Source of the DNA: Streptomyces camelliae
GTDB taxonomy: Bacteria; Actinomycetota; Actinomycetes; Streptomycetales; Streptomycetaceae
Assembly (NCBI RefSeq): GCF_027625935.1
Contig: NZ_CP115300.1
Location: 7,688,001-7,752,000 of the forward strand
Direction of reading: 5' to 3'
Length of the DNA stretch: 64,000 nt
In this document: piece after piece, positions 2,790 through 41,374 of the stretch
Numbering within the stretch: position 1 is the stretch's first letter
How the letters are laid out: each line of letters opens with the position of its first letter
Translations under genes and position numbers: made by a program
The notes under the pieces: generated by a model
Told to the model about the DNA's origin: nothing
Seen by the model: only the letters and a program-made list of their open reading frames with translations
Database searches by the model: none

Positions 2790-3017
2790 GTTGGGGCACC
2801 CGGATGAGAGTGCACCCGGAGAAACATGGGAACCGGCTGTGGATGCGATACCGGCGGTAACTCTTGTGTTGTCCGCCGAATGTGAAAGCCGGTCAATCCA
2901 GCTTCTTGTTTCCTGTGAGACGCGTGTGCGAAGGTGAGCCTCCCCGCGGGCACTTTCACTGCTTTCCGACAGAACGGCATTTCGCATGCTGTTCTGCGGC
3001 TGGAAGGAAATGGTTCC

Positions 3018-4985: not shown

Positions 4986-5393
4986 TGCGCCGGGGCCGGC
5001 CGGGGGGGGGGGCTGACGCCGGGGGGCCGGGCCGCTGAAGCGGGTTCGAGCCACCGGCGTGAAGTCATGCGGAATTTACAGACTTCGTGCGGATGTCCGA
5101 GCGCGTTGCGTGTGGGTGAGCGCGCGGTGAAGCGGGCGGTGCTTTGCCGGGGTTGAGGGGGTGTGGCGCGTGGGCCGGGGAGCTCACGCGTCCGTGCCCG
5201 TGACGGAATTCGCCGCGTTTTCGGCGCTTGCGGGTAATTCGATCGCCTGGCCGAATCGGCGTCACCGGTCGCGCAATGGGCGCGACGTTATTGACCCGTG
5301 AGTAACACCTCGCTAGGTTCCGGTGCCCTCGCACCAGAGAGTTCCGCCGCACACCCCCCACCGTGCTGTCCCCGCCGATCGTGCCGGAGCATC
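4986..5393 (+). other. Intergenic region with long G run and leader of the PKS operon
   Basis: A gap of 408 bases between the lectin-tailed gene and the first megasynthase. It opens with an uninterrupted run of 11 G (5002-5012) followed by further G6 and G3 tracts, which could form a G-quadruplex or slow polymerase, and ends with a strong promoter (5291-5319). I see no gene in it. Confidence 0.7.
5291..5319 (+). promoter_or_regulatory. Consensus vegetative promoter of the PKS operon
   Basis: TTGACC at 5291-5296 and TAGGTT at 5314-5319 are separated by exactly 17 bases, matching the HrdB-type Streptomyces consensus (TTGACN-N17-TAGNNT). Transcription would start near 5326, giving a leader of about 68 bases before the ATG at 5394. 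Confidence 0.7.
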
Positions 5394-8300
5394 ATGACCT
5401 CCCCAGTGCGCGCCCAAGACCTGATCCTGTGTCTCACCCCCTTCGGTGAGCCCGACGCCGGACTCGCCGCTGCCGCCAGTGCCGCCGGCGCGCTCGGCGT
5501 CCTCGACCTCGGCACCGGCGACCGAAGATGCCGCGAGGAACTGTCCCGGCTGAGACGGGCCGCGCCGGGCCCCTTCGGCATACGGGTGACCGGGCGCTGC
5601 ACCCTGACCCCGGCCGACGTCGGCGATGGCCCCGACACCGTGGTCCTCACCTCGGACGCGCCCTGGCAGGCGACCCAACTCCCGCCACACTGGCGGGTGT
5701 TGGCGGAGATCACCGACATCGACCAGGCCCGGACAGCCGTCCGCGCCGGTGCCCGAGGTCTGATCGCCCGGGGTGCCGAGAGCGGCGGCCGGGTCGGCGA
5801 GCTGAGCACCTTCGTACTGCTCCAACAGCTGCTGTCCGACGGCGAGTTGAACGACGTTCCGGTCTGGGCGTGCGGCGGCATCGGACCGCGTACGGCGGCG
5901 GCCGCCGTGGCCGGCGGGGCCGCCGGTGTCGTGCTCGACAGCCAACTGGCCCTGCTGGCCGAGTCGGGACAGCCCGAGACGGTACGGGCAGCTCTGCGGT
6001 CCCTGGACGGCTCGGAGACCGTACTGCTGGGCGGCCACCGGGTGCTGCGCCGCCGCGGGCCCGACGCCCCGCGCATCTCCGCCGACGACCCTGAGACGAT
6101 CGCGGCCCTCCTGGGCACCGCCGACCCACGCACCCACCTCCTCCCCGTGGGCCAGGACGGCTTCCTCGCCGCCCGGTTCGCCGAACGGTGGGGGCATGTG
6201 CGGGGGGTGGTGCGGGAGCTGTCGGCGGTCATCCAGGGGGTGGCCGTCGGCGATCCGGTGCGGGTCGACGGCGTGGCCGACGCCGGTCCGGCAGGCAGGG
6301 CCGGGACGGCGGGCGCTGGACCTGAGGCGGACCTTGGCGCGGAGGGTGCTGGGGCTGCGGTGGCCTTGGGCGAGGCGGATGCCGGGGCTGAGGCCTCCCA
6401 TGCCGTGTCCGATGCCCGGTCGGCGGCCTCGCAGGCCGTGTCCGATGCCGGCCCGGCGGGTGCCGCCGGCGTTTCGGACGTCGCGTCGGACATTGCGTCG
6501 GACATCGTGACGGACGCGCGGCACACCCAAGCCGAGCCTGCTGCCGTCGCCGCTCTGCGGCCCGGCTCTGCCATGAGCCGGGCGCTCGGGACCCGGCTTC
6601 CGGTGGCGCAGGGACCCATGACGCGGGTCAGCGATCAGGCCGGGTTCGCCGCCGCTGTCGCCGAGGGCGGGGCGCTGCCGTTTCTGGCGCTGGCCCTCGC
6701 CGACGGGGAGCGGACGCGGGCGATGCTGACCGAGGCGCGGGCCGTGCTGGACGGGCGGCCCTGGGGTGTGGGTGTCCTCGGCTTCGCGCCGGAGGAGATC
6801 AGGAACGCCCAGTTGGACGCCGTACGGGAGCTGCGGCCCACGCACGCGGTCATCGCGGGCGGACGGCCCGCCCAGGCCGAGGCGCTGGAGCGGGCCGGGA
6901 TCCGGACCTTCCTGCACGTGCCGTCGCCTGGGCTGCTGCGGCAGTTCGTCGATGCCGGTGCGCGCAGGTTCGTGTTCGAGGGGTCCGAGTGCGGCGGGCA
7001 TGTGGGGCCCCGGGCGTCCTTCCCGCTGTGGGAGGCCCAACTCGGGGTACTTGAGGACTACTTGGCCGACGCCGATGACGAGAGGGCCCGGCAGCTGGAG
7101 GTCCTCTTCGCGGGCGGTGTGCACGACGAGCGGTCGGCCGCCATGGTCGCCGCCCTCGCCGCGCCGCTCACCGCCCGCGGTGCCGCCGTCGGCCTCCTCA
7201 TGGGCACCGCCTACCTGTTCACCGAGGAAGCCGTCGCGCACGGCGCCATCCAGCCCCTCTTCCAGCGGCAGGTCCTCGCCGCCACCGCGACCGACCTGCT
7301 GGAGACCGCCCCGGGTCACGCGACCCGCTGTGTGCCGAGCCCCTTCACCGGCGACTACCGGGACCGGGAGGCCGCACTGCGGGCGCAGGGGCTGAGCGAC
7401 CGCGAGGTCTGGGAGGGATTGGAACGACTCAACGTGGGGCGGCTGCGCATCGCGAGCAAGGGCGTGGAGCGGTGCACCGACGGCGAGTTGGCCGCTGTCG
7501 GAGAGGAACGGCAGCTCAGCGACGGGATGTTCATGGCGGGCGAGGTCGCCGTCCTGCGCTCGGCGACCACCACCGTGGCCGAACTGCACCGTGCGGTGAC
7601 CGACGGCGCCGCCGACTTCCTGACCCGACGGGCCGCGCGCCCGGCACCGCTGCCCCCGGCCGAACCGGCCCCGCCCGCACCGCTCGACATCGCGATCGTC
7701 GGCATGGCCTGCATGTTCCCGCAGGCCGCCGACCTCGCCGCCTTCTGGAGCACCGTCGTCACGGGACGCGACGCCGTCACCGAGGTGCCGCCCGAGCGCT
7801 GGGACCCGGCCGTGCACCACGCGTCCGCCAGCACCGCGTCCAAATGGGGCGGCTTCCTGCCCCGCATCCCGTTCGACCCGCTGCGCTACGGCATCCCGCC
7901 CGCCTCGCTCGGCAGCATCGAACCCGTGCAGCTGCTGTCCCTGGAGGCGGCCTGGCGGGCCCTTGAGGACGCCGGATACGGGGATCGGGGGCGGGCGTTC
8001 GACCGCGCGCGGACCTCCGTCGTCTTCGGCGCCGAGGCGGGCAGCGATCTGTCCAACGCCGTCACCCTGCGCGCCGTACTCCCCGCCTACTACGGCAAGG
8101 TCCCGGACGGGATCGAGGAGCAGCTGCCCCGGCTGACCGAGGACTCCTTCCCCGGCATGCTGGCCAACGTCATCTCCGGCCGGATCGCCAACCGGCTGGA
8201 CCTCGGCGGGGCCAACTTCACCGTCGACGCCGCCTGCGCCTCCTCCCTCGCCGCCCTCGACGTGGCCTGCAAGGAACTCGTCTCCGGCACCAGCGACATG

Positions 8301-11300
8301 GTGCTGTGCGGCGGCGCCGACCTGCACAACGGCATCAACGACTACGTCCTGTTCTCCTCCGTCCACGCGCTCTCGCCGACCGGCCGCTCCCGCGCCTTCG
8401 ACGCCTCCGCCGACGGCATCGCGCTCGGCGAGGGCGTGGCCTGCCTGGTCCTCAAACGGCTCGCGGACGCCGAACGCGCCGGCGACCGGATCTACGGCGT
8501 GGTCAAGGGCCTCGGCTCCGCCAGCGACGGCCGCTCCCTGGGCCTGACCGCACCCCGCCCCGAAGGCCAGCGGGCGGCACTGGAGCGCGCCTACCGCAAC
8601 GCCGGGGTCTCACCGGCGGACGTCGGCCTCGTCGAGGCCCACGGCACCGGCACGGTCGTCGGTGACCGCACCGAACTCACCGTACTCAGCGACGTGTTCA
8701 CCGAAGCCGGTGCGGAGCTGGGCAGTTGTGCGCTCGGCTCGGTCAAGTCGCAGATCGGGCACACCAAGTGCGCCGCCGGACTCGCCGGCCTCATCAAGAC
8801 CACCCTCGCCCTCTACACCGGTGTCACCCCGCCCACCCTGCACGTGGAGCACCCCAACCCGGCCTGGGCACAGGACAGCAGCCCCTTCGTCTTCCACACC
8901 CGGGCCCGGCCCTGGAGCGCACCGGCCGCCGAACGCTTCGCCGGGGTCAGCGCGTTCGGCTTCGGCGGGACCAACTTCCACGCGGTGCTCGCCGGTCACA
9001 GCGACGCCGTACCACCGGCGCAGACCCTGGACGAGTGGCCGTGCGAGCTGTTCCTCTTCCGGGGCCGGGACACGGTGGCGGCCCACCGCACGGTCGAGGA
9101 GCTCCTGCGGGCCGCCGAGGCCGACGGCCGGCCCTGGCGGCTGCGGGACCTCGCCCTCGCCGCGGCCCGCCGCGCCGACACCGCGCACGAACCGGTACGC
9201 GCCGCCGTCGTGGCCCGCGACATCGAGGAACTGACCGCACAGCTACGGCGGATACTCGCCGGGGAGCACGACCCGGCCGCCGGAATCCACGCGGCGGACC
9301 CGGTGGACGGCCAGATCGCCTTCCTCTTCCCCGGCCAGGGCAGCCAGCGCACCGGCATGCTCGCCGACCTCCTGGTCACCCTTCCCGCGCTGCGCCACTA
9401 TCTGTACCTGGGCCGCGCCCACGCCGACGTCGTCCATCCGCCGGCCGCCTTCGACGACACCGCCCGCGAGCGTCTCCGGGCCGACCTCACCGACACCCGG
9501 TCCGCCCAGCCCGCCCTCGGCATCGCGGGCCTCGCCGCCCACGCCTTCCTCACCTCCGCGGGCGTCCACCCCGACCAGGCCGCCGGTCACAGCTACGGCG
9601 AACTGGTCGCCCTCGCCGCGGCCGGCGCCCTCGACCCCGAGACCCTGCTGGAACTGAGCGGCGAACGCGCCGCCGCGATCCTGGCGGCGGCCGGCGACGA
9701 CCCCGGCACGATGGCCGCCGTCGCCGCCCCCGCCGAGACGGTCACCGACGCCCTGCGCACGGCCGGGGCCCCCGCGACCGTAGTCGTCGCCAACCTCAAC
9801 TCACCCGAGCAGACGGTGATTTCTGGACCGACCGAGGACATCGGCACGGCCGTACGACTGCTGCGCGCGGTCGGGCTCGGCGCCCGGCGCATCCCCGTGG
9901 CCTGCGCCTTCCACAGCCCGCTCGTGGCCTCTGCGGGTGAGCGTTTCGCCAAGGTCCTCGCGGACAAGACCGTACGGGCACCCGAGTTCCCCGTCTGGGC
10001 CAACCGCACCGCCGCGCCCTACCCCCGCGATCCCGACGCGGTGCGTGCCGGACTCGCCGCGCAGATCGGCGCCCCGGTCGCCTTCGTCGCCCAGATCGAG
10101 GCGATGTACGAGGCGGGCGCGCGGCTCTTCGTCGAGGCGGGCCCCGGTAGCGTGCTCACCCGGCTCGTGCGGCAGATCCTCGGCGACCGCCCGCACCGCA
10201 CCGTCGTCTGTGAACCGTCGGGGGACAGCGGGCTGCGCGGCTGGCTGGACGCACTCGCCCAACTCGCCGTCGCCGGACGGCCGGTGCGCACCGCCTGGCT
10301 CCTGCGCGGCCGCGACGCCGTCGACGCGCTGCGCGCCCCGGCACCGAAACGGCCCGGCTGGACGGTCGACGGACACCTCGTCCGCACCGCCGACGGGGCA
10401 CTCCTGCCCGGTGCCCTCGCACCGGCCCGACGAGTCATGGAGACGACCGTGACCACCGACCAGCCGCACGGCGCCCCCACCGACCGGGACGCGCTGATCT
10501 CCGAGTTCCTGCGCACCAGCAGGGAGATGATCGCCGCCCAGCGCGATGTGCTGCTCACCTACTTCGGGGCGGCACCGGGCGCGACACCGCCGGCCCCGGT
10601 CGCCGCCGTGCCCGCACCGGATCCCGTGGCGCAGCACGAACTGCCGTCCGCCGAGCCGCCGTTGTCCTCCCTCGTTGCCGAAGAGCCGGTGGCCGACGTG
10701 GAGCGGATCGTCCTGGAGATCATCAGCGAACGGACCGGCTATCCCGTCGACATGATCGAGCCCGACCTCGACCTGGAGGCGGACCTGAGCATCGACTCCA
10801 TCAAGCGTGCCGAGATCGCGGGTGAACTCGCCAAGCGCCTGGGCATCGCAGGCGGCGCCGAGGTCCTGGACGACGCCGAACTGGAGGAACTGGCCAAGGC
10901 GCGCACGGCGGCGGCGGTGACCGGATGGCTCACGGCGCGTGTCGGGGCCGGATCCGGGGGCGAGGGCGAGCGGGTGGAGGCGGCCCATGCCCGCGAACCG
11001 GTCGAGGAGCGGGCCGAGGTGTCGTACGGTCGCGAACCGATCGAGGCGCAGGCGGAGGTGTCATACGCCCGGGAACCGGCCGGGGAGCCGGCGGAGGCGG
11101 CGCACATCGGTACGCGAGCTCCGGCGGAACCTCTCGTTCCCGGGGTGCCGCCCCGGCGCTGTGAGCTGCGACCCGTGGCCCTTCCGGAGCCCGGCCCGGT
11201 CGGTCTCGACCTGTCCGGGCGGCGCTTCGTCCTTCTCGGCGGCGGAGCGGGCACGGCGGGCGAGCTCGCGGCGCGGCTCGCCGCGCACGGTGCCGATCCC

Positions 11301-12617
11301 GTGGTCCTCGACCAGGCGCACCACCTCACCTCGGCCGACGGCCCGGTCGACGGTGTCGTGTACCTCGGCGCGCTGCCCGGCTCCGACCTTCCAGTGCTGC
11401 CGGACGCCTTCCCGGTGCTGAGGGCGGCGCTGGCGTGCGGCCCGCGGACGCTGCTCGCCGTGCGGGGCGCCGACCGCGCGCAGGCGCTGCGGGCGGCCGG
11501 GCTGGACGGGCTGTTCCGCAGCGTCGGCCGGGAGTACCCCGGCCTCCTCGCCCGGGTCGTCGCCGTGCCGGACACCGCCCCGGCGGCCGTCGCCGAGGCC
11601 CTGCTCGCCGAGCTGCGTGCCCCGGAGCCGGTGGCCCCGGTCGTCCTGCGTACGGCGGCCGGAGCCCGGCAGGGATTCGAGCTGCTGCCCGCGCCCCTCG
11701 GCCTGCTCGGCACCACCGGCGCCGGGCCCGCCGCCGACGGCGCCGCCGAGGCGGCCGCGCTCGGTCTCGACCGGGACTCCGTCGTCCTGCTGGCCGGCGG
11801 CGCCCGGGGCATCACCGCGCGGTTCGCCGCCACCCTGGCCCGCGCCTGCCGGTGCCGGGTCGAACTGCTGGGCCGTACCCCCGCGCCCACCGCACCCGAG
11901 GACCCCCGTACCGCGGCCGCCCGCACCCCCGTCGAACTGCGGGCGGCGCTGGCCGCCGGACCCGGTGCGCCGAAGCCCGCCGAGATCAACCGGACCGCCG
12001 AACTCCTCCTCGCCCAGCGGGAGATCGCCACGACCCTCGCCGAACTCGGCACGCTCGGCAGCGAGGCCCGCTACCGCTCGGTCGACTTCCGGGAGCGGGA
12101 CGCCGTCCTGCAGGCGGTCAAGGAGATCCACGCCGAACACGGCAGGCTCGACGGTGTCGTCTTCGCCGCCGGAGTCATCGAGGACCGGCTGATCGCCGAC
12201 AAGACGCCCGAGTCCTTCCAGCGGGTCTACGGCACGAAGATCGCCGGTGCCGCGGCGCTGTTCGCCGCCCTGGACGAACTGCCCGCCGCGCCCGCGTTCA
12301 CCGTACTGTTCGGCAGCATCGCCGCCCTCCTCGGCAACCGCGGCCAGGCCGACTACGCCGCCGCCAACGACGCCCTGGAGGCGCTCGGCGCGGACTGGGC
12401 CGAGCGCACCGGCCACCGCGCACTGACCGTGCACTGGGGACCCTGGGCACCCTCCGGCGCACACACCGGCATGGTCGGGGCGGAACTCGGCCGCGAGTAC
12501 GCCAGGCGCGGGGTCGACCTGATCGACCCGGACGAGGGCACCGCGGCCCTGCTCCGGGAGCTCGCCTGGGGCGACCCGGCGGCCCGTGCCGTCGTCCACA
12601 CCGCATCGGGCTGGTGA
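5394..12617 (+). CDS. PUFA-synthase-like type I polyketide synthase: FMN barrel x2-KS-AT-ACP-KR
   Basis: 2407 residues. Two nitronate-monooxygenase/PfaD-like FMN barrels come first: barrel 1 (about 1-235, GAESGGRVG near residue 127, ACGGIG) and barrel 2 (about 396-735, PVAQGPMTRVSD, GSECGGHVG near 530), joined by a low-complexity Ala/Asp/Val linker. In PUFA systems this family is the enoyl reductase. Next is a ketosynthase (from about 763; Cys948 in DAACASS, His1083 in EAHGTGT, His1123 in IGHTK), an acyltransferase (from about 1309; Ser1400 in GHSYGE), one ACP (Ser1802 in LSIDSIKR, the hallmark PUFA-type carrier motif) and a ketoreductase (GGARGIT near 2135, Tyr2321 and Asn2325). ATG 5394 is chosen over GTG 5298 because GGAG precedes it and 5298 falls inside the promoter. 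A dehydratase is lacking here and is supplied by the next gene, one base away. The family resembles the S. coelicolor SCO0124-0129 lipid cluster. Confidence 0.9.
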   Translation: MTSPVRAQDLILCLTPFGEPDAGLAAAASAAGALGVLDLGTGDRRCREELSRLRRAAPGPFGIRVTGRCTLTPADVGDGPDTVVLTSDAPWQATQLPPHWRVLAEITDIDQARTAVRAGARGLIARGAESGGRVGELSTFVLLQQLLSDGELNDVPVWACGGIGPRTAAAAVAGGAAGVVLDSQLALLAESGQPETVRAALRSLDGSETVLLGGHRVLRRRGPDAPRISADDPETIAALLGTADPRTHLLPVGQDGFLAARFAERWGHVRGVVRELSAVIQGVAVGDPVRVDGVADAGPAGRAGTAGAGPEADLGAEGAGAAVALGEADAGAEASHAVSDARSAASQAVSDAGPAGAAGVSDVASDIASDIVTDARHTQAEPAAVAALRPGSAMSRALGTRLPVAQGPMTRVSDQAGFAAAVAEGGALPFLALALADGERTRAMLTEARAVLDGRPWGVGVLGFAPEEIRNAQLDAVRELRPTHAVIAGGRPAQAEALERAGIRTFLHVPSPGLLRQFVDAGARRFVFEGSECGGHVGPRASFPLWEAQLGVLEDYLADADDERARQLEVLFAGGVHDERSAAMVAALAAPLTARGAAVGLLMGTAYLFTEEAVAHGAIQPLFQRQVLAATATDLLETAPGHATRCVPSPFTGDYRDREAALRAQGLSDREVWEGLERLNVGRLRIASKGVERCTDGELAAVGEERQLSDGMFMAGEVAVLRSATTTVAELHRAVTDGAADFLTRRAARPAPLPPAEPAPPAPLDIAIVGMACMFPQAADLAAFWSTVVTGRDAVTEVPPERWDPAVHHASASTASKWGGFLPRIPFDPLRYGIPPASLGSIEPVQLLSLEAAWRALEDAGYGDRGRAFDRARTSVVFGAEAGSDLSNAVTLRAVLPAYYGKVPDGIEEQLPRLTEDSFPGMLANVISGRIANRLDLGGANFTVDAACASSLAALDVACKELVSGTSDMVLCGGADLHNGINDYVLFSSVHALSPTGRSRAFDASADGIALGEGVACLVLKRLADAERAGDRIYGVVKGLGSASDGRSLGLTAPRPEGQRAALERAYRNAGVSPADVGLVEAHGTGTVVGDRTELTVLSDVFTEAGAELGSCALGSVKSQIGHTKCAAGLAGLIKTTLALYTGVTPPTLHVEHPNPAWAQDSSPFVFHTRARPWSAPAAERFAGVSAFGFGGTNFHAVLAGHSDAVPPAQTLDEWPCELFLFRGRDTVAAHRTVEELLRAAEADGRPWRLRDLALAAARRADTAHEPVRAAVVARDIEELTAQLRRILAGEHDPAAGIHAADPVDGQIAFLFPGQGSQRTGMLADLLVTLPALRHYLYLGRAHADVVHPPAAFDDTARERLRADLTDTRSAQPALGIAGLAAHAFLTSAGVHPDQAAGHSYGELVALAAAGALDPETLLELSGERAAAILAAAGDDPGTMAAVAAPAETVTDALRTAGAPATVVVANLNSPEQTVISGPTEDIGTAVRLLRAVGLGARRIPVACAFHSPLVASAGERFAKVLADKTVRAPEFPVWANRTAAPYPRDPDAVRAGLAAQIGAPVAFVAQIEAMYEAGARLFVEAGPGSVLTRLVRQILGDRPHRTVVCEPSGDSGLRGWLDALAQLAVAGRPVRTAWLLRGRDAVDALRAPAPKRPGWTVDGHLVRTADGALLPGALAPARRVMETTVTTDQPHGAPTDRDALISEFLRTSREMIAAQRDVLLTYFGAAPGATPPAPVAAVPAPDPVAQHELPSAEPPLSSLVAEEPVADVERIVLEIISERTGYPVDMIEPDLDLEADLSIDSIKRAEIAGELAKRLGIAGGAEVLDDAELEELAKARTAAAVTGWLTARVGAGSGGEGERVEAAHAREPVEERAEVSYGREPIEAQAEVSYAREPAGEPAEAAHIGTRAPAEPLVPGVPPRRCELRPVALPEPGPVGLDLSGRRFVLLGGGAGTAGELAARLAAHGADPVVLDQAHHLTSADGPVDGVVYLGALPGSDLPVLPDAFPVLRAALACGPRTLLAVRGADRAQALRAAGLDGLFRSVGREYPGLLARVVAVPDTAPAAVAEALLAELRAPEPVAPVVLRTAAGARQGFELLPAPLGLLGTTGAGPAADGAAEAAALGLDRDSVVLLAGGARGITARFAATLARACRCRVELLGRTPAPTAPEDPRTAAARTPVELRAALAAGPGAPKPAEINRTAELLLAQREIATTLAELGTLGSEARYRSVDFRERDAVLQAVKEIHAEHGRLDGVVFAAGVIEDRLIADKTPESFQRVYGTKIAGAAALFAALDELPAAPAFTVLFGSIAALLGNRGQADYAAANDALEALGADWAERTGHRALTVHWGPWAPSGAHTGMVGAELGREYARRGVDLIDPDEGTAALLRELAWGDPAARAVVHTASGW

Positions 12618-12618
12618 C

Positions 12619-15600
12619 ATGACGTCACGTCAGCTACCCGTCGCCATCGTCGGGATGGCGGTGCTGCTGCCCGGCGCCCCCGGCCTCGACGCCTACTGGC
12701 GCAATCTGCGCGACGGCGTCGACGCGGTCCGCGAGGTCCCCGCCGACCGCTGGGACGCCGACTACTACCGGCCCGGTACGGCGGCCGGGCCGGCCGCCGC
12801 CGACCAGGTGTACTGCCGGCGCGGCGGCTTCGTGGACGGCCTGGCCGAGGTGGAGGTCACGCGCTACGGCATCATGCCCGCCTCGGTGTCCGGCACCGAG
12901 CCGGACCAGCTGATCGCCCTCGACGTGGCCGCCGCCGCGCTCGCCGACGCGGGCGGCACGGACCGGCTGCCCGACCGGCACCGGATCGGGGTGGCGCTGG
13001 GCCGCGGCGGCTATCTCACGCCCGGCCTGGTCCGGCTCGACCAGCGGGTCCGGACGGCTCACCAACTCGTGCGCACGCTGGGCGAGTTGCTACCCGGACT
13101 GGAATCGGACCAACTCGACCGGATCCGCGCCGCGTTCACCGAACGGCTCGGCCCCGACCGCCCGGAGTCCGCGATCGGCCTGGTCCCCAACCTGGCCGCG
13201 TCCCGCATCGCCAACCGGCTCGACCTGCGCGGCCCCGCCTACACCCTGGACGCGGCCTGCGCCTCCTCGCTCGTCGCCGTCGACCAGGCGGTCACCGAAC
13301 TCACCACCGGCCGCTGCGACATGATGCTCGCCGGGGGAGTGCATCACTGCCACGACATCACCCTCTGGAGCGTCTTCTCCCAACTGCGCGCCCTGTCCCC
13401 GACCGAGCGCATCCGTCCCTTCCACCGTGACGCGGACGGCATCCTCATCGGCGAGGGCACGGGCGTCGTCGTCCTGAAGCGGCTCGCGGACGCCGAGCGC
13501 GACGGCGACCGCGTGTACGCGGTGATCCGGGGCACGGGCGTGGCCGGAGACGGCCGTACGGCGGGGCTCGTCACCCCCGACCCGGGCGGCCAGGCCCGCG
13601 CCGTACGACAGGCCTGGCACACCGCCGGCCTCGATCCGGCCGCACCGGACTCCATCGGCCTGCTGGAGGCGCACGGCACCGCGACGCCCGCCGGTGATAC
13701 GGCCGAACTCACCACCCTGGCAGAGGTGTTCGGGCCACGGCAGCGGGGCGGTGACATCCTCCACCCGGTCCTCGGCTCGGTGAAGTCGATGATCGGCCAC
13801 ACCATGCCGGCCGCCGGAGTCGCGGGCCTGGTGAAAGCCGCCCTCGCGCTCCACCACGGCACCCTCCTGCCCACCCTGCACTGCGAGGACCCCCACCCCG
13901 CCCTCGCCGCCACGCGCTTTCGCACCCTGGACCGGGCCCGCCCCTGGGAGACCGACGCCCGGCAGCCGGTCCGCCGGGCCGCCGTGAACGCCTTCGGGTT
14001 CGGCGGGATCAACGCCCACGTGGTGCTGGAGGAGGCCCCCGGCCGTCCGCCGATCCACGCCCCCTCCGGACCCACCCCCGCCGCCGCCCAGGTGACCGGG
14101 CCCGTTCCGGCTGCCGCTCGGATCGCCGAGCCCGGTTCGGTTCCCGCCCACGTGACCGAGGCCGGTTCCATCGCCGCTCATGTCGCCGAGCCCGCTCCTG
14201 CTGCCGACCATGTGAACGAACCCGCCCCCGCCCAGGTCACCGAGTCCGAGCCGGTCCTGCTTCTCGCCGCCGACAGTGTGGCCGGTCTCGGTGCCCTCCT
14301 CGACGCCGAGGACTCCGCCGTACTCGCCGCAGGGCTCGACCCCGCCCGGCCGCACCCCGGTGCCGGTCCCGTGCGGCTCGGTGTCGTCGCGCCGAACGCC
14401 AAGCGGCTCGCCCTGGCCCGTCGTGCGGTCGCCAAGGGCCGGGCCTGGCAGGGGCGCGGCGACGTGTGGTTCCGGCCGGGGCCGCTGCTCGGCCGGGCCG
14501 GTGGCGGGCTGGCGTTCGTCTTCCCCGGGCTGGAGGGCGACTTCACCCCCCGCACCGACGACATCGCGGCCCACTTCGGGCTGCCGCCACTGCCCGGCGC
14601 GGACGTGGAGGTCGGGGACGTGGGACGGCACGGCTTCGGTGTCGTCGGCGTGGGCCGTCTGCTGGACCGGGTGCTGCGCCGGATGGGTGTCGTACCGGAC
14701 GCGGTCGCCGGGCACAGCGTCGGCGAGTGGACGGCGATGGCGGTGGCCGGACTCTACTCGGCCGCCCAAGTGGACGCCTTCATGGCCGAGTTCGACCCCG
14801 ACACGGTCACCGTCCCCGGCCTCGCATTCGCCGCCCTCGGCACTTCCGCCGAGCACGTCCGCACCGCCCTCGCCGAGGACTGGCCGGACTCCGGCATCGT
14901 GCTCTCCCACGACAACGCGCCCCGCCAGTCCATGGTCTGCGGCCCCGGCGCGGCGGTCGAGGCGTTCGTACGGGCCCTGCGCGCCCAGGGCGTGATCTGC
15001 CAGGTGCTGCCCTTCCGCTCCGGCTTCCACACCCCGATGCTCGGACCGTACCTCGCCCCCATCAAGGAAGCCGCCGACCGCTTCCGGCTCCATCCGCCGG
15101 CCGTGCCGGTGTGGTCCGGGACCACCGCGGCGCCCTTCCCGCCGGGCGAGGCGGAGGTGCGTGAGCTGTTCGTACGGCATCTGCTGGAGCCCGTCCGCTT
15201 CCGCGAGCTGACCGAGGCGATGTACGCCGCCGGGCACCGCGTCTTCGTCCAGACCGGCCCCGGCCACCTCACCTCACTGATCGACGACACCCTCGGCGAC
15301 CGCGACCACCTGACCGTTGCCGCCAACGCCCGGCAGCGCAGTGGGATGTCCCAACTCCGGTGTGTGGCGACCGCGTTGTGGGCGGCGGGTGCGTCCGTGG
15401 CCCCGGCGCTGCCGCACCGGGCCACCCCAGCCGCTGCTGAGCGCCCACCCGTCCGCCTCGACCTCTCCGGCGCCCTCGTCTCCCTGGCCGGCCCGGAACT
15501 CGACGCCCTACGGGCCGAACTGCGCCCCGCCGCGCACCCGGCGCCGCCCCGCTCCGGCGCGCTGGACTCCCTGGCCACCCGCTTCCCGGCCGCGGCCGAG

Positions 15601-17496
15601 CTGAGCGCCCTGCTGCGGGACACCGCGGACACGGCGGCGGAGCTGATCACCGCGCGCCGCCGCCCCACCCCGGCCTCTGCCGCGCCCGCCCTCGACAGAT
15701 CCGGCACCCCGGCCTCTGCCGCGCCCGCCCTGGACAGATCCGGCACCCCGGCCTCTGCCGCGCCCGCTCTCGACAGATCCGGTACCTCGGCCTCTGCCGC
15801 GCCCGCCCTCGACAGATCCGGCACCTCGGCCTCTGCCGCGCCCACCCCCGACAGATCCGGCACCCCGGCCCCTGCCCTGCCCGCCCTCGACAGACCCGCC
15901 CCGATCACCACCACACTCCACGTCTCCCCCCGCACCATGCCCCACCTCCTGGACCACTGCTTCTTCCCGCAGCGGCCCAACTGGCCGGATGTGGAAGACC
16001 GTTGGCCGGTGGTGCCGGCCACCACGATCGTGCGGCACATGATGGACGCGGCGGAGGCCGCGGCCCCCGGTCTGCGGGCCGTCACCGTGCGCGGGGCCCG
16101 CTTCGACCGTTGGCTCACCGCCACACCGCCCGTCGACGTGCCGGTCACCGTCACCCCCGACCCGCTTCCCGGCCGTCCCGACCGCGTCACCGTCGCCTTC
16201 GGCCCCACGGCCCGCGCCGTCGTCGAACTCGCCCCGCACCACCCCGCACCGCCCCCGCCCGGTCCGCTCCCGGACGCGCCGGAACGCCGGCCCGAGCACA
16301 CCGCCGCCCAGATCTACCGGGAGCGCTGGATGTTCCACGGCCCCGGCTTCCAGGGCCTCACCGACCTCACCGCGATCGGTGAGCGGCACATCCGCGGAAG
16401 GATCACCGCACCCTCCGCCCCCGGTGCCCTGCTCGACAACGTCGGCCAGCTCCTCGGCTACTGGATCATGGCGACCCGCACCGAGCGGACCGTTGTCTTC
16501 CCCGTGCAGATAGGGCAGTTGAGCTTCCATGGGCCGCACCCGGCCCCCGGCACCGAGGTCGCCTGCCTCCTGCGGATCACGGCCCTCACGGACACCCTTC
16601 TGGAGGCGGACGCGGAGCTGACCGTCGGCGGCCGGGTGTGGGCCCGGATCACCGGCTGGCAGGACCGCCGCTTCGACAACGACCCGACGACCCGCCCCGT
16701 CGAGCGCTTCCCCGAACGCCACACCCTCTCCGTCGCCCGGCCCGGCGGCTGGGTACTGGTGCACGAGCGGTGGCCGGACCTCGCCTCACGCGAGCTGATC
16801 ATGCGCAACTCGCTGGGCGGTGCCGAGCGCGCCGCATACGCCGAACGCCCGCCGCGCGGCCGCCGGCAGTGGCTGCTCGGCCGGATCGCGGTCAAGGACG
16901 CCGTACGGCAATGGCTCTGGCAGCACGGCGAAGGCCCCGTCTTTCCCGCCGAACTCCGGGTTCACAATGATGAGTTGGGAAGTCCGTACGTCACCGGTAC
17001 GCATGGGCGCACCCTGCCCCCGCTGGACGTCTCGCTCGCCCACCGGGGCGAGGCGGGCGTGGCGATCGTACGGACGCACCGCCCCCAGCCGGGCCCCGGC
17101 ATCGACATCGAAGAGGTCGCCGAGCGGGACCCGGCGACCCTCGCCACCGCGCTCGGCACGCCCGAACTGCGGCTGCTGCGGGGCCTGCCGGAGGACGGCC
17201 CCGATCCGCAGGCGCGGTGGTTCACCCGTTTCTGGGCCGCCAAGGAGGCGGTCGCCAAGGCCGAGGGCGTCGGATTCGGCGGCCGGCCACGGGACTTCGA
17301 GGTGCTGGAGGCCGCCCCGGACGGCAGCCGGCTGCTGGTCTCCGGCCGTCTGGAGCGCGCCTACACCGTGCACTGCGCGCCGGTGAGTAATCCACCCGCT
17401 CTGCCCGGGCGGGAGTACGTGGTGGCCTGGACGACCGGGCCCGGAGCCGACGACGCACGGGGCGACGACACACCGCCCGACGCCGGACACCCCTGA
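12619..17496 (+). CDS. PUFA-synthase-like megasynthase: KS-AT-DH-phosphopantetheinyl transferase
   Basis: 1625 residues, starting one base after the previous stop, so the two are probably translationally coupled. Domains: ketosynthase (5-480; Cys214 in DAACASS, His352 in EAHGTAT, His394 in IGHTM), a repeat-rich Pro/Ala linker, an acyltransferase (about 635-930; Ser700 in AGHSVGEW), six 13-residue repeats, a hot-dog dehydratase (about 1096-1355), and a complete 4'-phosphopantetheinyl transferase at the C-terminus (about 1430-1605; Asp1496 and Glu1498 in GIDIEEV, Lys1542 and Glu1543 in WAAKEAVAKA). The fused transferase would load the phosphopantetheine arm on the ACP of the first synthase and on the free ACP downstream. 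Both KS and AT keep their catalytic residues, unlike the inactive chain-length factor of classic PfaC. Confidence 0.88.
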   Translation: MTSRQLPVAIVGMAVLLPGAPGLDAYWRNLRDGVDAVREVPADRWDADYYRPGTAAGPAAADQVYCRRGGFVDGLAEVEVTRYGIMPASVSGTEPDQLIALDVAAAALADAGGTDRLPDRHRIGVALGRGGYLTPGLVRLDQRVRTAHQLVRTLGELLPGLESDQLDRIRAAFTERLGPDRPESAIGLVPNLAASRIANRLDLRGPAYTLDAACASSLVAVDQAVTELTTGRCDMMLAGGVHHCHDITLWSVFSQLRALSPTERIRPFHRDADGILIGEGTGVVVLKRLADAERDGDRVYAVIRGTGVAGDGRTAGLVTPDPGGQARAVRQAWHTAGLDPAAPDSIGLLEAHGTATPAGDTAELTTLAEVFGPRQRGGDILHPVLGSVKSMIGHTMPAAGVAGLVKAALALHHGTLLPTLHCEDPHPALAATRFRTLDRARPWETDARQPVRRAAVNAFGFGGINAHVVLEEAPGRPPIHAPSGPTPAAAQVTGPVPAAARIAEPGSVPAHVTEAGSIAAHVAEPAPAADHVNEPAPAQVTESEPVLLLAADSVAGLGALLDAEDSAVLAAGLDPARPHPGAGPVRLGVVAPNAKRLALARRAVAKGRAWQGRGDVWFRPGPLLGRAGGGLAFVFPGLEGDFTPRTDDIAAHFGLPPLPGADVEVGDVGRHGFGVVGVGRLLDRVLRRMGVVPDAVAGHSVGEWTAMAVAGLYSAAQVDAFMAEFDPDTVTVPGLAFAALGTSAEHVRTALAEDWPDSGIVLSHDNAPRQSMVCGPGAAVEAFVRALRAQGVICQVLPFRSGFHTPMLGPYLAPIKEAADRFRLHPPAVPVWSGTTAAPFPPGEAEVRELFVRHLLEPVRFRELTEAMYAAGHRVFVQTGPGHLTSLIDDTLGDRDHLTVAANARQRSGMSQLRCVATALWAAGASVAPALPHRATPAAAERPPVRLDLSGALVSLAGPELDALRAELRPAAHPAPPRSGALDSLATRFPAAAELSALLRDTADTAAELITARRRPTPASAAPALDRSGTPASAAPALDRSGTPASAAPALDRSGTSASAAPALDRSGTSASAAPTPDRSGTPAPALPALDRPAPITTTLHVSPRTMPHLLDHCFFPQRPNWPDVEDRWPVVPATTIVRHMMDAAEAAAPGLRAVTVRGARFDRWLTATPPVDVPVTVTPDPLPGRPDRVTVAFGPTARAVVELAPHHPAPPPPGPLPDAPERRPEHTAAQIYRERWMFHGPGFQGLTDLTAIGERHIRGRITAPSAPGALLDNVGQLLGYWIMATRTERTVVFPVQIGQLSFHGPHPAPGTEVACLLRITALTDTLLEADAELTVGGRVWARITGWQDRRFDNDPTTRPVERFPERHTLSVARPGGWVLVHERWPDLASRELIMRNSLGGAERAAYAERPPRGRRQWLLGRIAVKDAVRQWLWQHGEGPVFPAELRVHNDELGSPYVTGTHGRTLPPLDVSLAHRGEAGVAIVRTHRPQPGPGIDIEEVAERDPATLATALGTPELRLLRGLPEDGPDPQARWFTRFWAAKEAVAKAEGVGFGGRPRDFEVLEAAPDGSRLLVSGRLERAYTVHCAPVSNPPALPGREYVVAWTTGPGADDARGDDTPPDAGHP
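15672..15905 (+). repeat. Six tandem 39-bp repeats inside the second megasynthase
   Basis: Units start at 15672, 15711, 15750, 15789, 15828 and 15867, exactly 39 bases apart. Each encodes a 13-residue unit close to ASAAPALDRSGTP. The first five are nearly identical in DNA and the last is diverged. They lengthen the flexible linker between the AT and DH domains without breaking the frame. Confidence 0.93.
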
Positions 17497-17529
17497 ACAC
17501 GAAGACGAAGCAGCCGAGGAGCACCCCCG

Positions 17530-17883
17530 ATGAACCCCACCCAGCCGGTTCCGACGAACTCCCTCCCGCCGGCCCCCGCGCCGCCCACCGTGCCCACCGC
17601 GGACCGTGTGCTCGCCGACGTCACCGGCATGCTCCGCACCGTCCTCGCGGAGTACGGCGACGACGATGTGGTGATCGGCATGTCCACCACCTTCAACCGC
17701 GATCTGGAGCTGGAGAGCATCGACCTCGTCACCCTGGCCGGGCTGCTGGAGGAGCGGTACGGGCGGCGGGCCAACCTCGCCGAGTTCCTGGCCGGCATGG
17801 AGTTCGACGAGATCATCGAGCTGACCGTGGGCCGGCTGGTGGAGTACGTGGTGTGGAGCCTGAAGACCACGCAGGCGGGCTGA
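17530..17883 (+). CDS. Free-standing acyl carrier protein
   Basis: 117 residues. A proline-rich N-terminal tail of about 23 residues is followed by one carrier-protein fold. The phosphopantetheine attachment site is Ser63 in DLELESIDLV, where the usual GxDS is LES. GAGGAG precedes the ATG. In the operon it sits between the megasynthase carrying the transferase domain and the hydrolase, so it probably carries a starter, an extender or the finished chain for hand-off; which of these is not visible. Confidence 0.9.
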   Translation: MNPTQPVPTNSLPPAPAPPTVPTADRVLADVTGMLRTVLAEYGDDDVVIGMSTTFNRDLELESIDLVTLAGLLEERYGRRANLAEFLAGMEFDEIIELTVGRLVEYVVWSLKTTQAG

Positions 17884-17886
17884 GCC

Positions 17887-18687
17887 GTGGCGATGGTCGA
17901 CGCCGGCGGGATCCGGCTGCACGTCCAGCGCACGGGGCCCACCGGCGACCGGTCCCCGCACGCCACGGTCGTCCTGGTGCACGGGCTGCTCACCGACAGC
18001 CTGGCCAGCTACTACTTCACCGTCGCCCCCGCCTTCGCCGCGTCCGGACTCGACGTCGTCATGTACGACCTGCGCGGACACGGCCGCAGCGAGCGCCCGT
18101 CGCGGGGCTACACCCTCGACCACAACATCGACGACCTGGAGGCCCTCCTCGACCGGCTTGCCGTCACCGGGCCCGTCCACCTGGTCGGCAACTCCTACGG
18201 CGGCACCATCGCCTTCGGCTGGGCGGCCCGGCACCCGGACCGCGTCACCAGCCTCACCCTGATCGAGTCCGAGCCCCCGACCCCCGCCTGGGCGGCGAAA
18301 CTCGGCCGCATCCTCGACCGGGTCGTCACCCAGCTCGCCCACAACGAGCCCGACGCCCTCGCCTGGATCACCGCGAACCGGGGCCACAACACCGCCCGGC
18401 TGGCCAAGGGCGCGGCCCGGCTCGCCCGCGAGACCACCCTCGGCCGGGACATCCCCGCCAGCCGCGTGCTCACCGAGGCCGAGATCAGGGCCGTACACTG
18501 CCCGGTCCTCGGGGTGTACGGCGGCGATTCGGACCTGGTCGACCTGGTGCCGCTGAAGCGGACGCTGCTGACCGGCTTCCGGGCGGTCGTGCTCCCCGGG
18601 CACGAGCACTCGGTGCTGGTGGAGGCGCCCACGGTCGTCGGCGGGCACATCCTGGACCTGATCCACGCGGGGGCGGGGGTCCGGTGA
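17887..18687 (+). CDS. Alpha/beta hydrolase, probable thioesterase or esterase of the PKS operon
   Basis: 266 residues from GTG at 17887 (an alternative ATG at 17893). The oxyanion stretch VLVHGLL, DLRGHGRS, the nucleophile elbow GNSYGG and a late GHEHS histidine make a complete Ser-Asp-His alpha/beta-hydrolase fold. The stop overlaps the GTG of the glycosyltransferase by three bases. Because neither megasynthase has a terminal thioesterase or reductase, this is the best candidate for releasing the chain from an ACP; an ester hydrolase acting on the finished product is the alternative. Confidence 0.85.
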   Translation: MAMVDAGGIRLHVQRTGPTGDRSPHATVVLVHGLLTDSLASYYFTVAPAFAASGLDVVMYDLRGHGRSERPSRGYTLDHNIDDLEALLDRLAVTGPVHLVGNSYGGTIAFGWAARHPDRVTSLTLIESEPPTPAWAAKLGRILDRVVTQLAHNEPDALAWITANRGHNTARLAKGAARLARETTLGRDIPASRVLTEAEIRAVHCPVLGVYGGDSDLVDLVPLKRTLLTGFRAVVLPGHEHSVLVEAPTVVGGHILDLIHAGAGVR

Positions 18688-19892
18688 GCGCCTTCCTCTT
18701 CGTCGTACCGCCGCTGACCGGGCACATCAACCCGGCCGTCGGCGTCGCCGCCCGGCTGACCGAGCGCGGCCACCGGGTCGCCTGGGCGTGTGCCGACCCC
18801 GCGCTGGTACGGCGGCTCGCGGGCCCGGACGCCGAGGTGCACGGGTGCGCGGGCCCGGTGCCGGGCGCCGACGGTGCCGTACGGCCGCCGGAGCTGCGGG
18901 GCGCGGAGGCGCTGAAGTTCCTCTGGGAGCGGTATCTGCTCCCGCTCGCCGATGCCATGGCTCCGGGCGTGCGGGGGGCGGTCGAGGCGGTCCGCCCGGA
19001 CGTGGTCGTGGCCGACCAACAGGCCTTCGCCGGCGCCCTGGTGGCCGAGCGGGCCGGGCTGCCGTGGGCCACCTCCGCGACCACCTCGGCCGAGTTCAGC
19101 GGCGCGTACGACGGTCTGCCGAAGGTCGCCGCGTGGCTGGACCGGAGCCTGGCCGGGCTCCGGACGCGGATCGGCGACCCGGCCGGCACCGCCGACCCGC
19201 GTTTCTCCCCGCACCTGCTGCTGATCTTCAGCACCCCCGAACTCATCGGTCCCCAGGCGCCGTTGGCCCCGCACATCCACTACGTCGGCCCGTCGCTCGC
19301 CGGCCGCCCGGCCGGGCCCGGCTTCCCCTGGGAGCGGCTCGACCCGGGCCGGGCGAAGGTCCTGGTGACCCTCGGCACGGCCAACGCGGACGCGGGCGTC
19401 CGGTTCCTCACCGAGTGCCTCACCGCGCTGCGCGAACGCGCCGACCGGGTGCAGGCCGTGATCGCCGACCCGGGTGGCGTCCTCCCGGTGCCGCCCGGCG
19501 ACAAGGACGTCCTGGTGCTGCCGTCCGTGCCCCAGCTCCCCTTGCTGGAGCGGATGGACGCCGTCGTCTGCCACGCGGGCCACAACACCGTGTGCGAGGC
19601 CCTGTGGCACGGCGTCCCGCTCGTCGTCGCCCCGATCCGCGACGATCAGCCGGTGGTGGCCGGGCAGGTCGTGGACGCGGGTGCCGGCGTCCGGGTCCGC
19701 TTCGGCCGGGTCACCGCGGACCGGCTGGGCGCGGCCCTCGACACGGTCCTCACCGACCGCTCCCTGCGGGCTGCCGCGGCCCGGATCCGCACCGCGTTCC
19801 GCGCGGCGGGCGGCGCCCGGGCCGCGGCGGCCCACCTCGAACACCTCGCGGACTTCACAGACTTCGCCGACTCCGAAGCGGAGACCCGATGA
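18684..19892 (+). CDS. Macrolide-type (GT1, MGT family) glycosyltransferase
   Basis: 402 residues. N-terminal acceptor half with PPLTGHINPAVGVAARL. C-terminal donor half with VLVTLGTAN and the nucleotide-sugar binding signature HAGHNTVCEALWHGVP followed by PIRDDQ. The family transfers a sugar from a UDP- or dTDP-sugar to a small lipophilic acceptor in the cytoplasm. Coupling to the PKS genes argues that the acceptor is the lipid/polyketide made here. Start GTG 18684 overlaps the hydrolase stop, and its own stop overlaps the methyltransferase ATG (ATGA). The sugar cannot be predicted: no deoxysugar genes are present, and galU is the only nearby sugar-nucleotide gene. Confidence 0.9.
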   Translation: MSAFLFVVPPLTGHINPAVGVAARLTERGHRVAWACADPALVRRLAGPDAEVHGCAGPVPGADGAVRPPELRGAEALKFLWERYLLPLADAMAPGVRGAVEAVRPDVVVADQQAFAGALVAERAGLPWATSATTSAEFSGAYDGLPKVAAWLDRSLAGLRTRIGDPAGTADPRFSPHLLLIFSTPELIGPQAPLAPHIHYVGPSLAGRPAGPGFPWERLDPGRAKVLVTLGTANADAGVRFLTECLTALRERADRVQAVIADPGGVLPVPPGDKDVLVLPSVPQLPLLERMDAVVCHAGHNTVCEALWHGVPLVVAPIRDDQPVVAGQVVDAGAGVRVRFGRVTADRLGAALDTVLTDRSLRAAAARIRTAFRAAGGARAAAAHLEHLADFTDFADSEAETR

Positions 19893-20992
19893 CCGAGCAA
19901 GAAGACAAGGGCGACACGGGCCGTGAGGCCGGCAAGGGTGACAAGGCGGCGCGCGTCGCCGCCCTGCGCCCCGCCTACCAGGACGACCTGGCCGCCGGCA
20001 CGGACCGCTTCTTCACCGCCCGCCGCACCGACTGCCCCTGGTGCGGCGCGGACCGGCTCACCCCGCGGCTGCGCACCCCCGACCTGCTCCAGCACAAGCC
20101 GGGCCACTTCACCCTCGACCGCTGCGCCGACTGCGGCCACACGTTCCAGAACCCCCAACTCACCGAGGAAGGGCTGGAGTTCTACTACCGGGACTTCTAC
20201 GACGGCCTCGGCGAGCAGCGCATGAGCGGCACCTTCGGCGGCCGGACCGCCATGTACGAGGGCCGCGCCGAGGCGATGCTGCCGTACGACCCCACCCCGA
20301 AGACCTGGCTGGACGTCGGCACCGGCCACGGCCACTTCTGCGCGGCCGCCCGCAGCGTCCTGCCCGGCACCTCCTTCGACGGGCTGGACTTCACCGACGG
20401 TGTCGAACTCGCCGCCCGCGAGGGCCGCGTGGACCACGCCTACCGCGGCGCCTTCCCCGCCCTCGCCCCCGAACTCGCCGCCCGCTACGACGTGGTGAGC
20501 ATGTTCCACTACCTGGAGCACAGCACCGACCCGGACCGCGAACTGCGCGCCGCCCACGAGGCCGTACGCCCCGGCGGCCACCTCCTCATCGAGGTGCCTG
20601 ACCCGGAGAGCCGCTACGCCCGGCTGCTCGGCCGCTGGTGGCTGCCCTGGCTCCAGCCGCAGCACCTGCACTTCATGCCGGTGGCCAACCTCCGGCGGCG
20701 ACTGACCGAGCTGGGCTTCACGGTGGTCGCGGAGCAGCACGCCGAGCCGCACGACCCGGTCGACCTGCTGGCCGCCGTCTGGCTGGCCCTGGACCACACC
20801 GCCCCGCGCGAGGACGCCCCCTGGCTGCCCGAACGACCCGGCCCCCTGAGCCGAGGCCTGCGTGCCACGCTCCTCCTCGCCGGCGTCCCCGCCCTCATCA
20901 CCGCCACACTCCTGGACCGCTTCGCACTACGTCCCCTGTCCCACCGCCTGGGCCTGTCCAACGCGTACCGTCTGGTGGCCCGCCGCGACTGA
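19889..20992 (+). CDS. SAM-dependent methyltransferase with N-terminal zinc ribbon
   Basis: 367 residues, ATG overlapping the glycosyltransferase stop. The N-terminus has two CxxC pairs (CPWCGA and CADCGH, about residues 50-80) that form a zinc ribbon as in sugar C-methyltransferase-like proteins. Motif I, WLDVGTGHGHF, then FDGLDF and a later FHYLEH form a class I Rossmann methyltransferase (Methyltransf_11/23). The last 60 residues contain a hydrophobic stretch (LLLAGVPALITATLL) that could bind the membrane. As last gene of the operon it probably methylates the sugar or the lipid; the target atom is not deducible. Confidence 0.85.
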   Translation: MTEQEDKGDTGREAGKGDKAARVAALRPAYQDDLAAGTDRFFTARRTDCPWCGADRLTPRLRTPDLLQHKPGHFTLDRCADCGHTFQNPQLTEEGLEFYYRDFYDGLGEQRMSGTFGGRTAMYEGRAEAMLPYDPTPKTWLDVGTGHGHFCAAARSVLPGTSFDGLDFTDGVELAAREGRVDHAYRGAFPALAPELAARYDVVSMFHYLEHSTDPDRELRAAHEAVRPGGHLLIEVPDPESRYARLLGRWWLPWLQPQHLHFMPVANLRRRLTELGFTVVAEQHAEPHDPVDLLAAVWLALDHTAPREDAPWLPERPGPLSRGLRATLLLAGVPALITATLLDRFALRPLSHRLGLSNAYRLVARRD

Positions 20993-20999
20993 CCAGCAC

Positions 21000-22043
21000 T
21001 CACAGGATCTTGGCCCGGATCAGCGCGGACAACACCACGGCGCCCGGCGCCAGTGGCGCCCAGTCCGTCAGCACCCGGTATCCGATGACGGTCGCGGTGG
21101 CCACCGAGGGGGCCGAGCCGAAGGCGATCAGCGTCCACACCAGCGCCGCGTCGACCGCGAGTCCGCCCGGCGCCGGCACCGCGCCGACGGCCGTGCCCGC
21201 CGCGAGATGGGCGAGCATCACCTGCTCCCACGGCAGCTCCAGTCCGAGCGAGGTACCGACACAGGCGAGGGCGGCCGCCTGCAGCAGCGGCATCGCGACC
21301 GCCCCGCCCCACAGCGCGGCCACCCGGCAGGGCCGCGTGTGCACCTCCCGCGCGTCGGCGAGGGCACAGCGCAGCATCCCGGTCACCGGCCGCCTGAGCG
21401 GCCGTACGACCGTGAGCAGCACCCCGGCGACCGCGAGGGCCCCGCCCACGACGGCGGCGACCGGCACCAGCAGCCGCCCGTCCGGTACCAGCCCGCCGAG
21501 GTCCCGCCAGGCCGGAGACACGGCCAGGAACACGACGAGCACCACCGTCTTCGCGGAGGACTTCGCCAGTGAGTACAACCCGACCGACGCCGCCGCACGG
21601 GCCGGCGGCACCCCGCGCGCCCGCAGGAACCGCACCGTGACGGCATGGGCGCCGAGCCCGCCGGGAAGCGCGTGATTGGCCGCACCGGCGGCGAACTGCG
21701 AGGCCAGCAACTGTCCTGCCGGCAGCCGGTCGGGCAGCGCGCCCTGCCGGACGCAGGCGGCCGCCACCCAGTTCAGGCAGGTGAAACCGCCCCCGGCCAG
21801 CAGCCACCAGGGATCGGCCGCGACGAGCCGCCGGACCCCCTCGTACACCAGGGGCCGGTTGGCCATCGCCCAGCCGCCGGCCAGCAGCAGCGGAGCGAGG
21901 CACAGGGCCAGCCGCACGGGCCGGCCCGCCAGGAAAGACGCGGGCCGGGGCGAAGGGGTTGCCTCGGCGAGCGAGGAGAGGGCCCCCTCCCGCACGGGCG
22001 GGGCCGCAGGGAGCGAGAGCGGGGACGGAGACGGTGCGGACAC
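21000..22043 (-). CDS. Flippase-like membrane protein (lysylphosphatidylglycerol synthase TM / UPF0104 family)
   Basis: 347 residues with about eight transmembrane helices and the family features NWVAAACVRQ, LPGGLGAHAV and AVPAPGGLAVDAALV. The family is the transmembrane half of MprF without its lysyl-transferase domain, and members are proposed to flip or move (glyco)lipids. Start GTG 22043. It is convergent with the methyltransferase with only seven bases between stops, so it is not in the same transcript, but its lipid-handling fold makes it a plausible partner of the lipid operon (inference). Confidence 0.8.
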   Translation of the reverse strand: MSAPSPSPLSLPAAPPVREGALSSLAEATPSPRPASFLAGRPVRLALCLAPLLLAGGWAMANRPLVYEGVRRLVAADPWWLLAGGGFTCLNWVAAACVRQGALPDRLPAGQLLASQFAAGAANHALPGGLGAHAVTVRFLRARGVPPARAAASVGLYSLAKSSAKTVVLVVFLAVSPAWRDLGGLVPDGRLLVPVAAVVGGALAVAGVLLTVVRPLRRPVTGMLRCALADAREVHTRPCRVAALWGGAVAMPLLQAAALACVGTSLGLELPWEQVMLAHLAAGTAVGAVPAPGGLAVDAALVWTLIAFGSAPSVATATVIGYRVLTDWAPLAPGAVVLSALIRAKIL

Positions 22044-41340: not shown

Positions 41341-41374
41341 GACAAGTCCTTGGAGCATCGGCGCCGGTCGGCGG

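Follow-up and report, generated by a model that had tools for sequence, protein, structure and literature searches.

What does a compact operon of six genes make in Streptomyces camelliae, where a synthase resembling those of polyunsaturated fatty acids (PUFA) is followed by genes for a hydrolase, a glycosyltransferase and a methyltransferase, and to which lineage of such synthases does it belong? The operon lies in a stretch of 64,000 nucleotides that was analysed as a whole (the window; contig NZ_CP115300.1, positions 7,688,001 to 7,752,000), located at 7.69-7.75 Mb on the largest contig of a 9.6 Mb genome. We propose that it is a portable six-gene operon, which probably directs the synthesis of a secondary glycolipid or of a glycosylated aliphatic polyketide.

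Organization of the operon

The six genes run head to tail on the + strand, from the ATG of the polyketide synthase (PKS) gene PKS1 at 5394 to the stop codon of the methyltransferase (MT) gene at 20992, with a maximal gap of 33 bases, and their number, order and spacing are those given in a first-pass annotation of the window. The features, in window coordinates, are the following:

5291..5319, + strand: promoter-like site TTGACC-N17-TAGGTT with a GAGTAA element shortly 3' of the -35 box (aligned block in near relatives)
5394..12617, + strand: PKS1, 2407 residues, with FabK-like barrel 1, FabK-like barrel 2, ketosynthase (KS), malonyl-type acyltransferase (AT), acyl carrier protein (ACP) domain and ketoreductase (KR) in this order (Pfam/NCBIfam, PDB FabK matches, conserved start, active-site columns)
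12619..17496, + strand: PKS2, with KS (active Cys), AT, PS-DH dehydratase (DH) and phosphopantetheinyl transferase (PPTase) (Pfam, active-site columns, start codon context)
17530..17883, + strand: free-standing ACP (PF00550, E 3.9e-05; carrier Ser in 98/98 relatives)
17887..18687, + strand: alpha/beta serine hydrolase, predicted to act in chain release or transfer (Abhydrolase_1, E 9.8e-27)
18684..19892, + strand: GT1/MGT-like glycosyltransferase (GT) (TIGR01426, E 1.2e-48, under the curated cut-off)
19889..20992, + strand: S-adenosylmethionine (SAM) methyltransferase with an N-terminal zinc ribbon and a fold similar to deoxysugar C-methyltransferases
21000..22043: flippase-like gene converging on the MT gene (PF03706, E 2.2e-17)

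The start of PKS2 is most plausibly ATG 12619, one base past the PKS1 stop, and the gap of one base between the two genes assumes this start. PKS2 is separated from the ACP gene by 33 bases and the ACP gene from the hydrolase gene by 3 bases, and the hydrolase/GT and GT/MT pairs each overlap by 4 bases.

Synthase domains and active sites

All the elements that had been read in the synthase (the LSIDSIKR carrier motif, an FMN-barrel reductase, KR, DH and a C-terminal PPTase) were found, the reductase barrels being two and not one. Both N-terminal barrels of PKS1 are of the FabK/NMO type (E 1.6e-15 and 2.8e-17) and match solved FabK-type enzymes of the PDB, and Pfam gave a single ACP match in this protein. 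In alignments of the proteins left after length filters (91/94 for PKS1 and 87/88 for PKS2), the KS Cys-His-Lys-His, the AT Ser-His, the ACP Ser, the KR Tyr and Ser and the His of barrel 2 (His536) are invariant in the 91 PKS1 proteins, and the KS Cys/His/Lys/His, the AT Ser-His and the DH residues His1101 and Asp1261 are invariant in the 87 PKS2 proteins. Since the KS of PKS2 keeps its Cys in 87/87, the synthase has no chain-length factor (CLF). At the position of the catalytic His in barrel 1 (5394-6500), the window carries Arg133 and the relatives carry Arg (70/91), Pro (11/91) or, in 1/91, His; this loss suggests that barrel 1 is probably a conserved, non-reducing copy, possibly a structural or regulatory pseudo-reductase. 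The PPTase motif reads VSLAH in the window and takes the form [VI]S[LVI]xH in 69/88 relatives, its His being aligned in 83/87 and the PPTase Lys kept in 82/87. Searches of solved structures with the DH and PPTase stretches gave weak matches only (E 0.15 and 0.11).

Tailoring genes and proposed pathway

The hydrolase, the glycosyltransferase and the zinc-ribbon methyltransferase are present as first described. Among 98 relatives of the hydrolase, Ser103 is found in 93 (Cys in 5), His241 in 98 and Glu127 in 95. The GT reaches 166.2 bits against the MGT model TIGR01426, whose curated cut-off is 260, and is thus related to this subfamily and outside it as curated; its best solved chains are YjiC and oleandomycin glycosyltransferases. 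The fold of the MT is nearest to the deoxysugar C-methyltransferases TcaB9/MtmC. An N-terminal extension of approximately 270 residues was seen on the MT in 13 proteins (loci include L139, L156-L160, L141, L143, L145, L148, L062 and L136), with no Pfam match in L139, the only member scanned; the Frankia-like loci also show an altered SAM motif.

From the sequence we infer the pathway that follows, including its substrate, the chain length and degree of reduction, the identity of the sugar, the order of the steps and the biological role. The carriers would be armed by the PPTase of PKS2 itself, the extender units would be loaded by the malonyl-type AT of PKS1, and the two active ketosynthases would condense them iteratively, the growing chain being reduced by the KR of PKS1, the DH of PKS2 and the second FabK-type barrel of PKS1. 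The outcome would be a long chain, largely saturated or beta-hydroxylated, which would reach the free ACP, perhaps via the AT of PKS2, and would then be released or transferred by the serine hydrolase. Finally, the GT1 enzyme would glycosylate the chain at a hydroxyl or carboxyl, and the zinc-ribbon enzyme would add a methyl group, most likely to the sugar.

The first-pass annotation had proposed a methylated glycolipid with a long reduced or unsaturated chain, possibly an envelope or spore lipid. A synthase of secondary-lipid type with dedicated glycosyl and methyl transfer is in agreement with our results. The word "unsaturated" is weakened because no FabA-type dehydratase/isomerase was matched by Pfam in the synthase at E <= 0.01, where only PS-DH was found, and a role as spore lipid is weakened because Williamsia (L083), a genus not known to form spores, has the core as well.

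Relatives and co-inheritance

Relatives were compared at 80 loci in named genome contigs, which are the best 80 of at least 572 relatives and are biased to near ones, and in 27 further, more distant stretches added from searches with the PKS2 C-terminus. Their genes were called with a codon-score script tuned to the window, with approximate starts; in one stretch (L135) this calling gave no core genes despite PKS2 similarity. The PKS2 C-terminus (E <= 1e-20) was found in 70/246 of the genomes sampled from the genus, 54/394 from the class and 9/396 from the phylum, and the order PKS1-PKS2-ACP-hydrolase-GT recurs across Actinomycetota, including another class (L136, L138). Carriage by viruses was rejected, since the viral contigs gave pattern matches in 2 stretches, neither of which encodes a relative.

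In 93 of the 97 loci with the hydrolase, the following gene encodes a GT; 3 have a sulfotransferase there, and in 1 neither was recognised (L012, where an earlier gene calling gave a 167-residue piece of a GT). The sulfotransferase genes are L079 7694-8659 (Plantactinospora), L087 15568-16512 (Paractinoplanes) and L134 15608-16570, the last named by Pfam and the other two by similarity to it. After the GT comes an MT in 66 loci, as a separate protein or as the C-terminal portion of a larger one, and an ATP-binding cassette (ABC) exporter in 12, named by Pfam for L144 and by similarity for the others. A major facilitator superfamily protein, named by eye, was seen in L040. A galactokinase-like gene adjoins the GT/MT genes in 10/97 loci, all of them divergent (L157, at 17110-18033, L136, L137, L139, L153, L154, L156, L158, L159 and L160). 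Its product gave no gathering-level Pfam match in the 3 members scanned, and its structure was modelled with low confidence (pLDDT 68.9), although most of the 50 listed matches, including the best 37, are galactokinases. This gene, the GT itself and the likeness of the MT fold to deoxysugar C-methyltransferases all point to a sugar.

Whether the PKS genes are kept without a GT, which would have refuted the first-pass reading, was checked in the 79 loci holding PKS1, PKS2, ACP and hydrolase (complete cores): a GT is present in 77, and the other two (L087, L134) have the sulfotransferase in its place. Compared two by two, the six proteins show correlated distances (r 0.91-0.98), the best of 200 permutations reaching 0.30, which indicates, from the distances between sequences, that the operon genes are inherited together.

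Several points weigh against a methylated glycolipid or glycosylated polyketide as the product. The MT is lacking in 22/79 complete cores, and since it is kept in only 57/79, the methylation claimed at first stands as a lineage-dependent step. The fold match of the MT spans the zinc and SAM domains only, the C-terminal domain of TcaB9 being uncovered. The choice of His1101 as the catalytic residue of the DH is our own assignment, and the alternative His of the DH motif that was tried as catalytic (1097) is not conserved, being Tyr in 62/87. The operon showed no gene for sugar supply, for a thioester reductase or for a type III PKS. Searches of the open-access literature led only to "Type M" and to "hglE-KS", a class of antiSMASH, and found no product. 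In the available text of PMC7896053, a cluster labelled "T1PKS, hglE-KS" was cloned from Streptomyces sp. NRRL F-525 and expressed heterologously, which led to no new peak in high-performance liquid chromatography; this strain carries an orthologue of the operon (L085), which may or may not be the expressed cluster.

The product could also be a secreted bioactive glycosylated polyketide, and not an envelope lipid, with the GT and MT decorating or shielding it. The patchy spread in the genus (the 70/246 genomes above), the ABC exporter genes of other lineages and the resemblance of the GT to macrolide-type enzymes would all fit such a compound. However, variable antibiotics less usually have synthase active sites that hardly vary, or a single gene set throughout the phylum. 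Neither a cyclase nor a modular PKS is present in the block, and we regard this explanation as unlikely.

Boundaries of the block

The limits of the operon are visible in genomes that lack it. In 19 kb stretches of G870 and G876, which are not among the 70 PKS2-positive genomes of the genus (the negatives being not all listed), the lectin gene, the flippase, DedA and further neighbours stand in window order and none of the six genes is present. At the same site in G020, which is PKS2-negative, all that remains beside the flippase is a piece of the hydrolase gene containing a stop codon (L193 11891-12265), and because this decayed fragment sits at an otherwise empty site, the operon was probably lost in G020. 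DNA similarity to the window restarts at 20993 (G876), 20999 (G020) and 21013 (G870), that is 1-21 bases past the MT stop, and on the left side the similarity of the empty or decayed sites stops at 4591-4699, inside the lectin gene. These empty sites and similarity edges indicate that the six-gene block is gained or lost as a unit, the flippase being a neighbour of the site. The left flank itself is a ricin-type lectin protein (window 2934-4985), kept with the flippase at the empty site.

These data also bear on the flippase, which had been noted as converging on the end of the operon. It does converge, the MT stop (20992) and the flippase stop (21000) facing each other, but it is not part of the system: G870 and G876 keep the lectin-flippase-DedA arrangement without the block. 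Flippase relatives occur in 50/121 genomes of the genus, and the 80-locus set includes 15 loci with flippase and DedA and two more with a flippase of 55-57% and no DedA. The flippase was rejected as a pathway partner, since it holds the same place without the block and beside the hydrolase remnant of G020.

Another explanation would make the hydrolase, GT and MT genes passengers outside the pathway, for which the non-universal MT (57/79 complete cores) could be invoked. The 4-base overlaps in the window, a GT or sulfotransferase after the hydrolase in 96/97 loci, the high distance correlation and a block edge that adjoins the MT stop all argue against it, making it very improbable.

Promoter-like site and other genes of the window

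The "consensus promoter" of the first-pass annotation is upheld in part: an E. coli-style scan gave 0 matches, but the promoter-like site TTGACC-N17-TAGGTT or a close form is conserved in the upstream alignment of 17/19 near relatives. Of the two misses, L067 carries the motif further upstream and the upstream DNA of L055 lies outside the data set. The form TTGAC-N17..21-TANNNT occurs in 48/85 upstream regions and in 3/85 on the other strand (50 first-order resamples: mean 0.76, maximum 3), and a stricter form occurs in 40/85, with 0 on the other strand and 0 in the resamples; the motif is mostly lacking in distant loci. The GTG at 5298, given as the PKS1 start by the mechanical call of open reading frames, was rejected: it falls within the promoter-like site, and conservation favours ATG 5394. 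A regulon under this motif was also discarded, the genome carrying one copy of the full motif. The site with its GAGTAA element may contain an operator for some regulator. Elsewhere in the window, the - strand carries a cytochrome P450 gene and, adjoining it, one for a pyridine nucleotide-disulphide reductase (40114-42802), perhaps a redox pair.

Relationship to other synthases

The first-pass annotation had placed the operon near the SCO0124-0129-type clusters of S. coelicolor. Against the NCBI PfaA model TIGR02813, PKS1 reaches 855.9 bits, under the cut-off of 1010.1, with the match on KS-AT. Over-cut-off PfaA matches are held by 5/61 genomes of the genus; the KS-AT of these PfaA-type Streptomyces clusters is homologous to that of the window (41-43% identity), and their KS form a clade separate from the window KS. 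Each such cluster has its own small carrier-like open reading frame (by eye), and around 4/4 PfaA-type loci (two overlapping 20 kb stretches each) tblastn at E <= 1e-5 found no relatives of the window ACP, hydrolase, GT or MT. These clusters serve as a stand-in for S. coelicolor Type L, whose own sequence was not compared. In the KS tree, where only the PKS1-side placement was used because long branches separate the PKS1 group from the PKS2 group, the KS of the window PKS1 falls in a 28-row clade (support 100/100) with G465 and G507, which are presumably Frankia (Frankia alni ACN14a and CcI3).

In the available text of Shulse and Allen (2011; PMC3098273), S. coelicolor is of Type L, and Frankia, Actinosynnema, Renibacterium and S. 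avermitilis are of Type M, with an uncharacterised product. The PPTase motif P1b' (hShxH) is given there as common to Types M, N, O, P, R, S and T, and Type L as having the PPTase motif P1b, (F/S)NxSH, pfaD at the 5' end and a fused pfaBC (KS-CLF-DH2-AT). The window departs from Type L on each of these features, as the motif is absent (0/88 relatives), the reductase is fused to PKS1, and there is neither CLF nor DH2. It departs from PfaA in its score under the cut-off, in having no FabA-like DH/isomerase and in having no KS-CLF pair. Its PPTase fits the hShxH motif of Types M-T. Taken together, these data suggest the Type M lineage of Shulse and Allen as the most probable nearest kin. The kinship with PUFA/Type L synthases and with the SCO0124-0129-type clusters was not retained, given the sub-cut-off PfaA score, the different PPTase motif, the separate KS clade and the lack of tailoring relatives at the PfaA-type loci. 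A true PUFA-type synthase (PfaA/Type L, SCO0126-0127-like) making a polyunsaturated acid would be consistent with the PfaA match on KS-AT and with the presence of a reductase, KR and PPTase, but the low score, the absence of a FabA-type DH match, the single ACP match in PKS1, the KS Cys kept in PKS2 with no CLF and the KS clade apart from the over-cut-off clusters make it the most improbable of the alternatives.

What the operon shares with Type M is the hShxH motif and, if G465 and G507 are Frankia, the KS clade. The words "glycosyl" and "methyltransferase" have 0 occurrences in the main text of PMC3098273, and the tailoring set and its sulfotransferase swap are described here. The synthases of heterocyst glycolipids (hgl, Type F; antiSMASH hglE-KS) work in the manner proposed here for the operon, combining a PUFA-like iterative synthase with glycosylation of a long chain; the likeness is one of function, the KS tree being without cyanobacterial sequences. 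Their domain fusion is different, since the window has PS-DH in PKS2, whereas Type F is without DH and I domains in the available text of PMC3098273. The Ars synthase of Azotobacter, which makes phenolic lipids (Type P), is, as predicted for that of the window, an iterative long-chain synthase (C23-C25 in the available text of PMC4824345) handing its chain to a second enzyme, but the window operon has a GT and a methyltransferase instead of a type III PKS. In the text available for two surveys, "hglE-KS" is among the classes of an antiSMASH-based study of Streptomyces (PMC8510958), and a 2026 survey of hybrid PKS-nonribosomal peptide synthetase-lipid clusters covers other, hybrid pathways (PMC13291983).

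Biological significance

More tentatively, the operon could represent a family of actinobacterial secondary lipids with exchangeable head groups, in which the chain made by a conserved core (double-barrel PKS1, PKS2, ACP and hydrolase) would carry a sugar in most lineages and a sulfate in a few, one reductase barrel having been duplicated and disarmed (His to Arg) for structure or programming. If this is true, it would be an actinobacterial counterpart of the heterocyst glycolipids, in Frankia too if G465 and G507 do belong there. The product class that we propose for testing is a long-chain lipid that bears a sugar, or perhaps a sulfate in other lineages, and that could escape a detector unable to see saturated lipids. 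The operon is widespread yet uncharacterised, and its block boundaries and the natural empty-site genomes are available for comparison.

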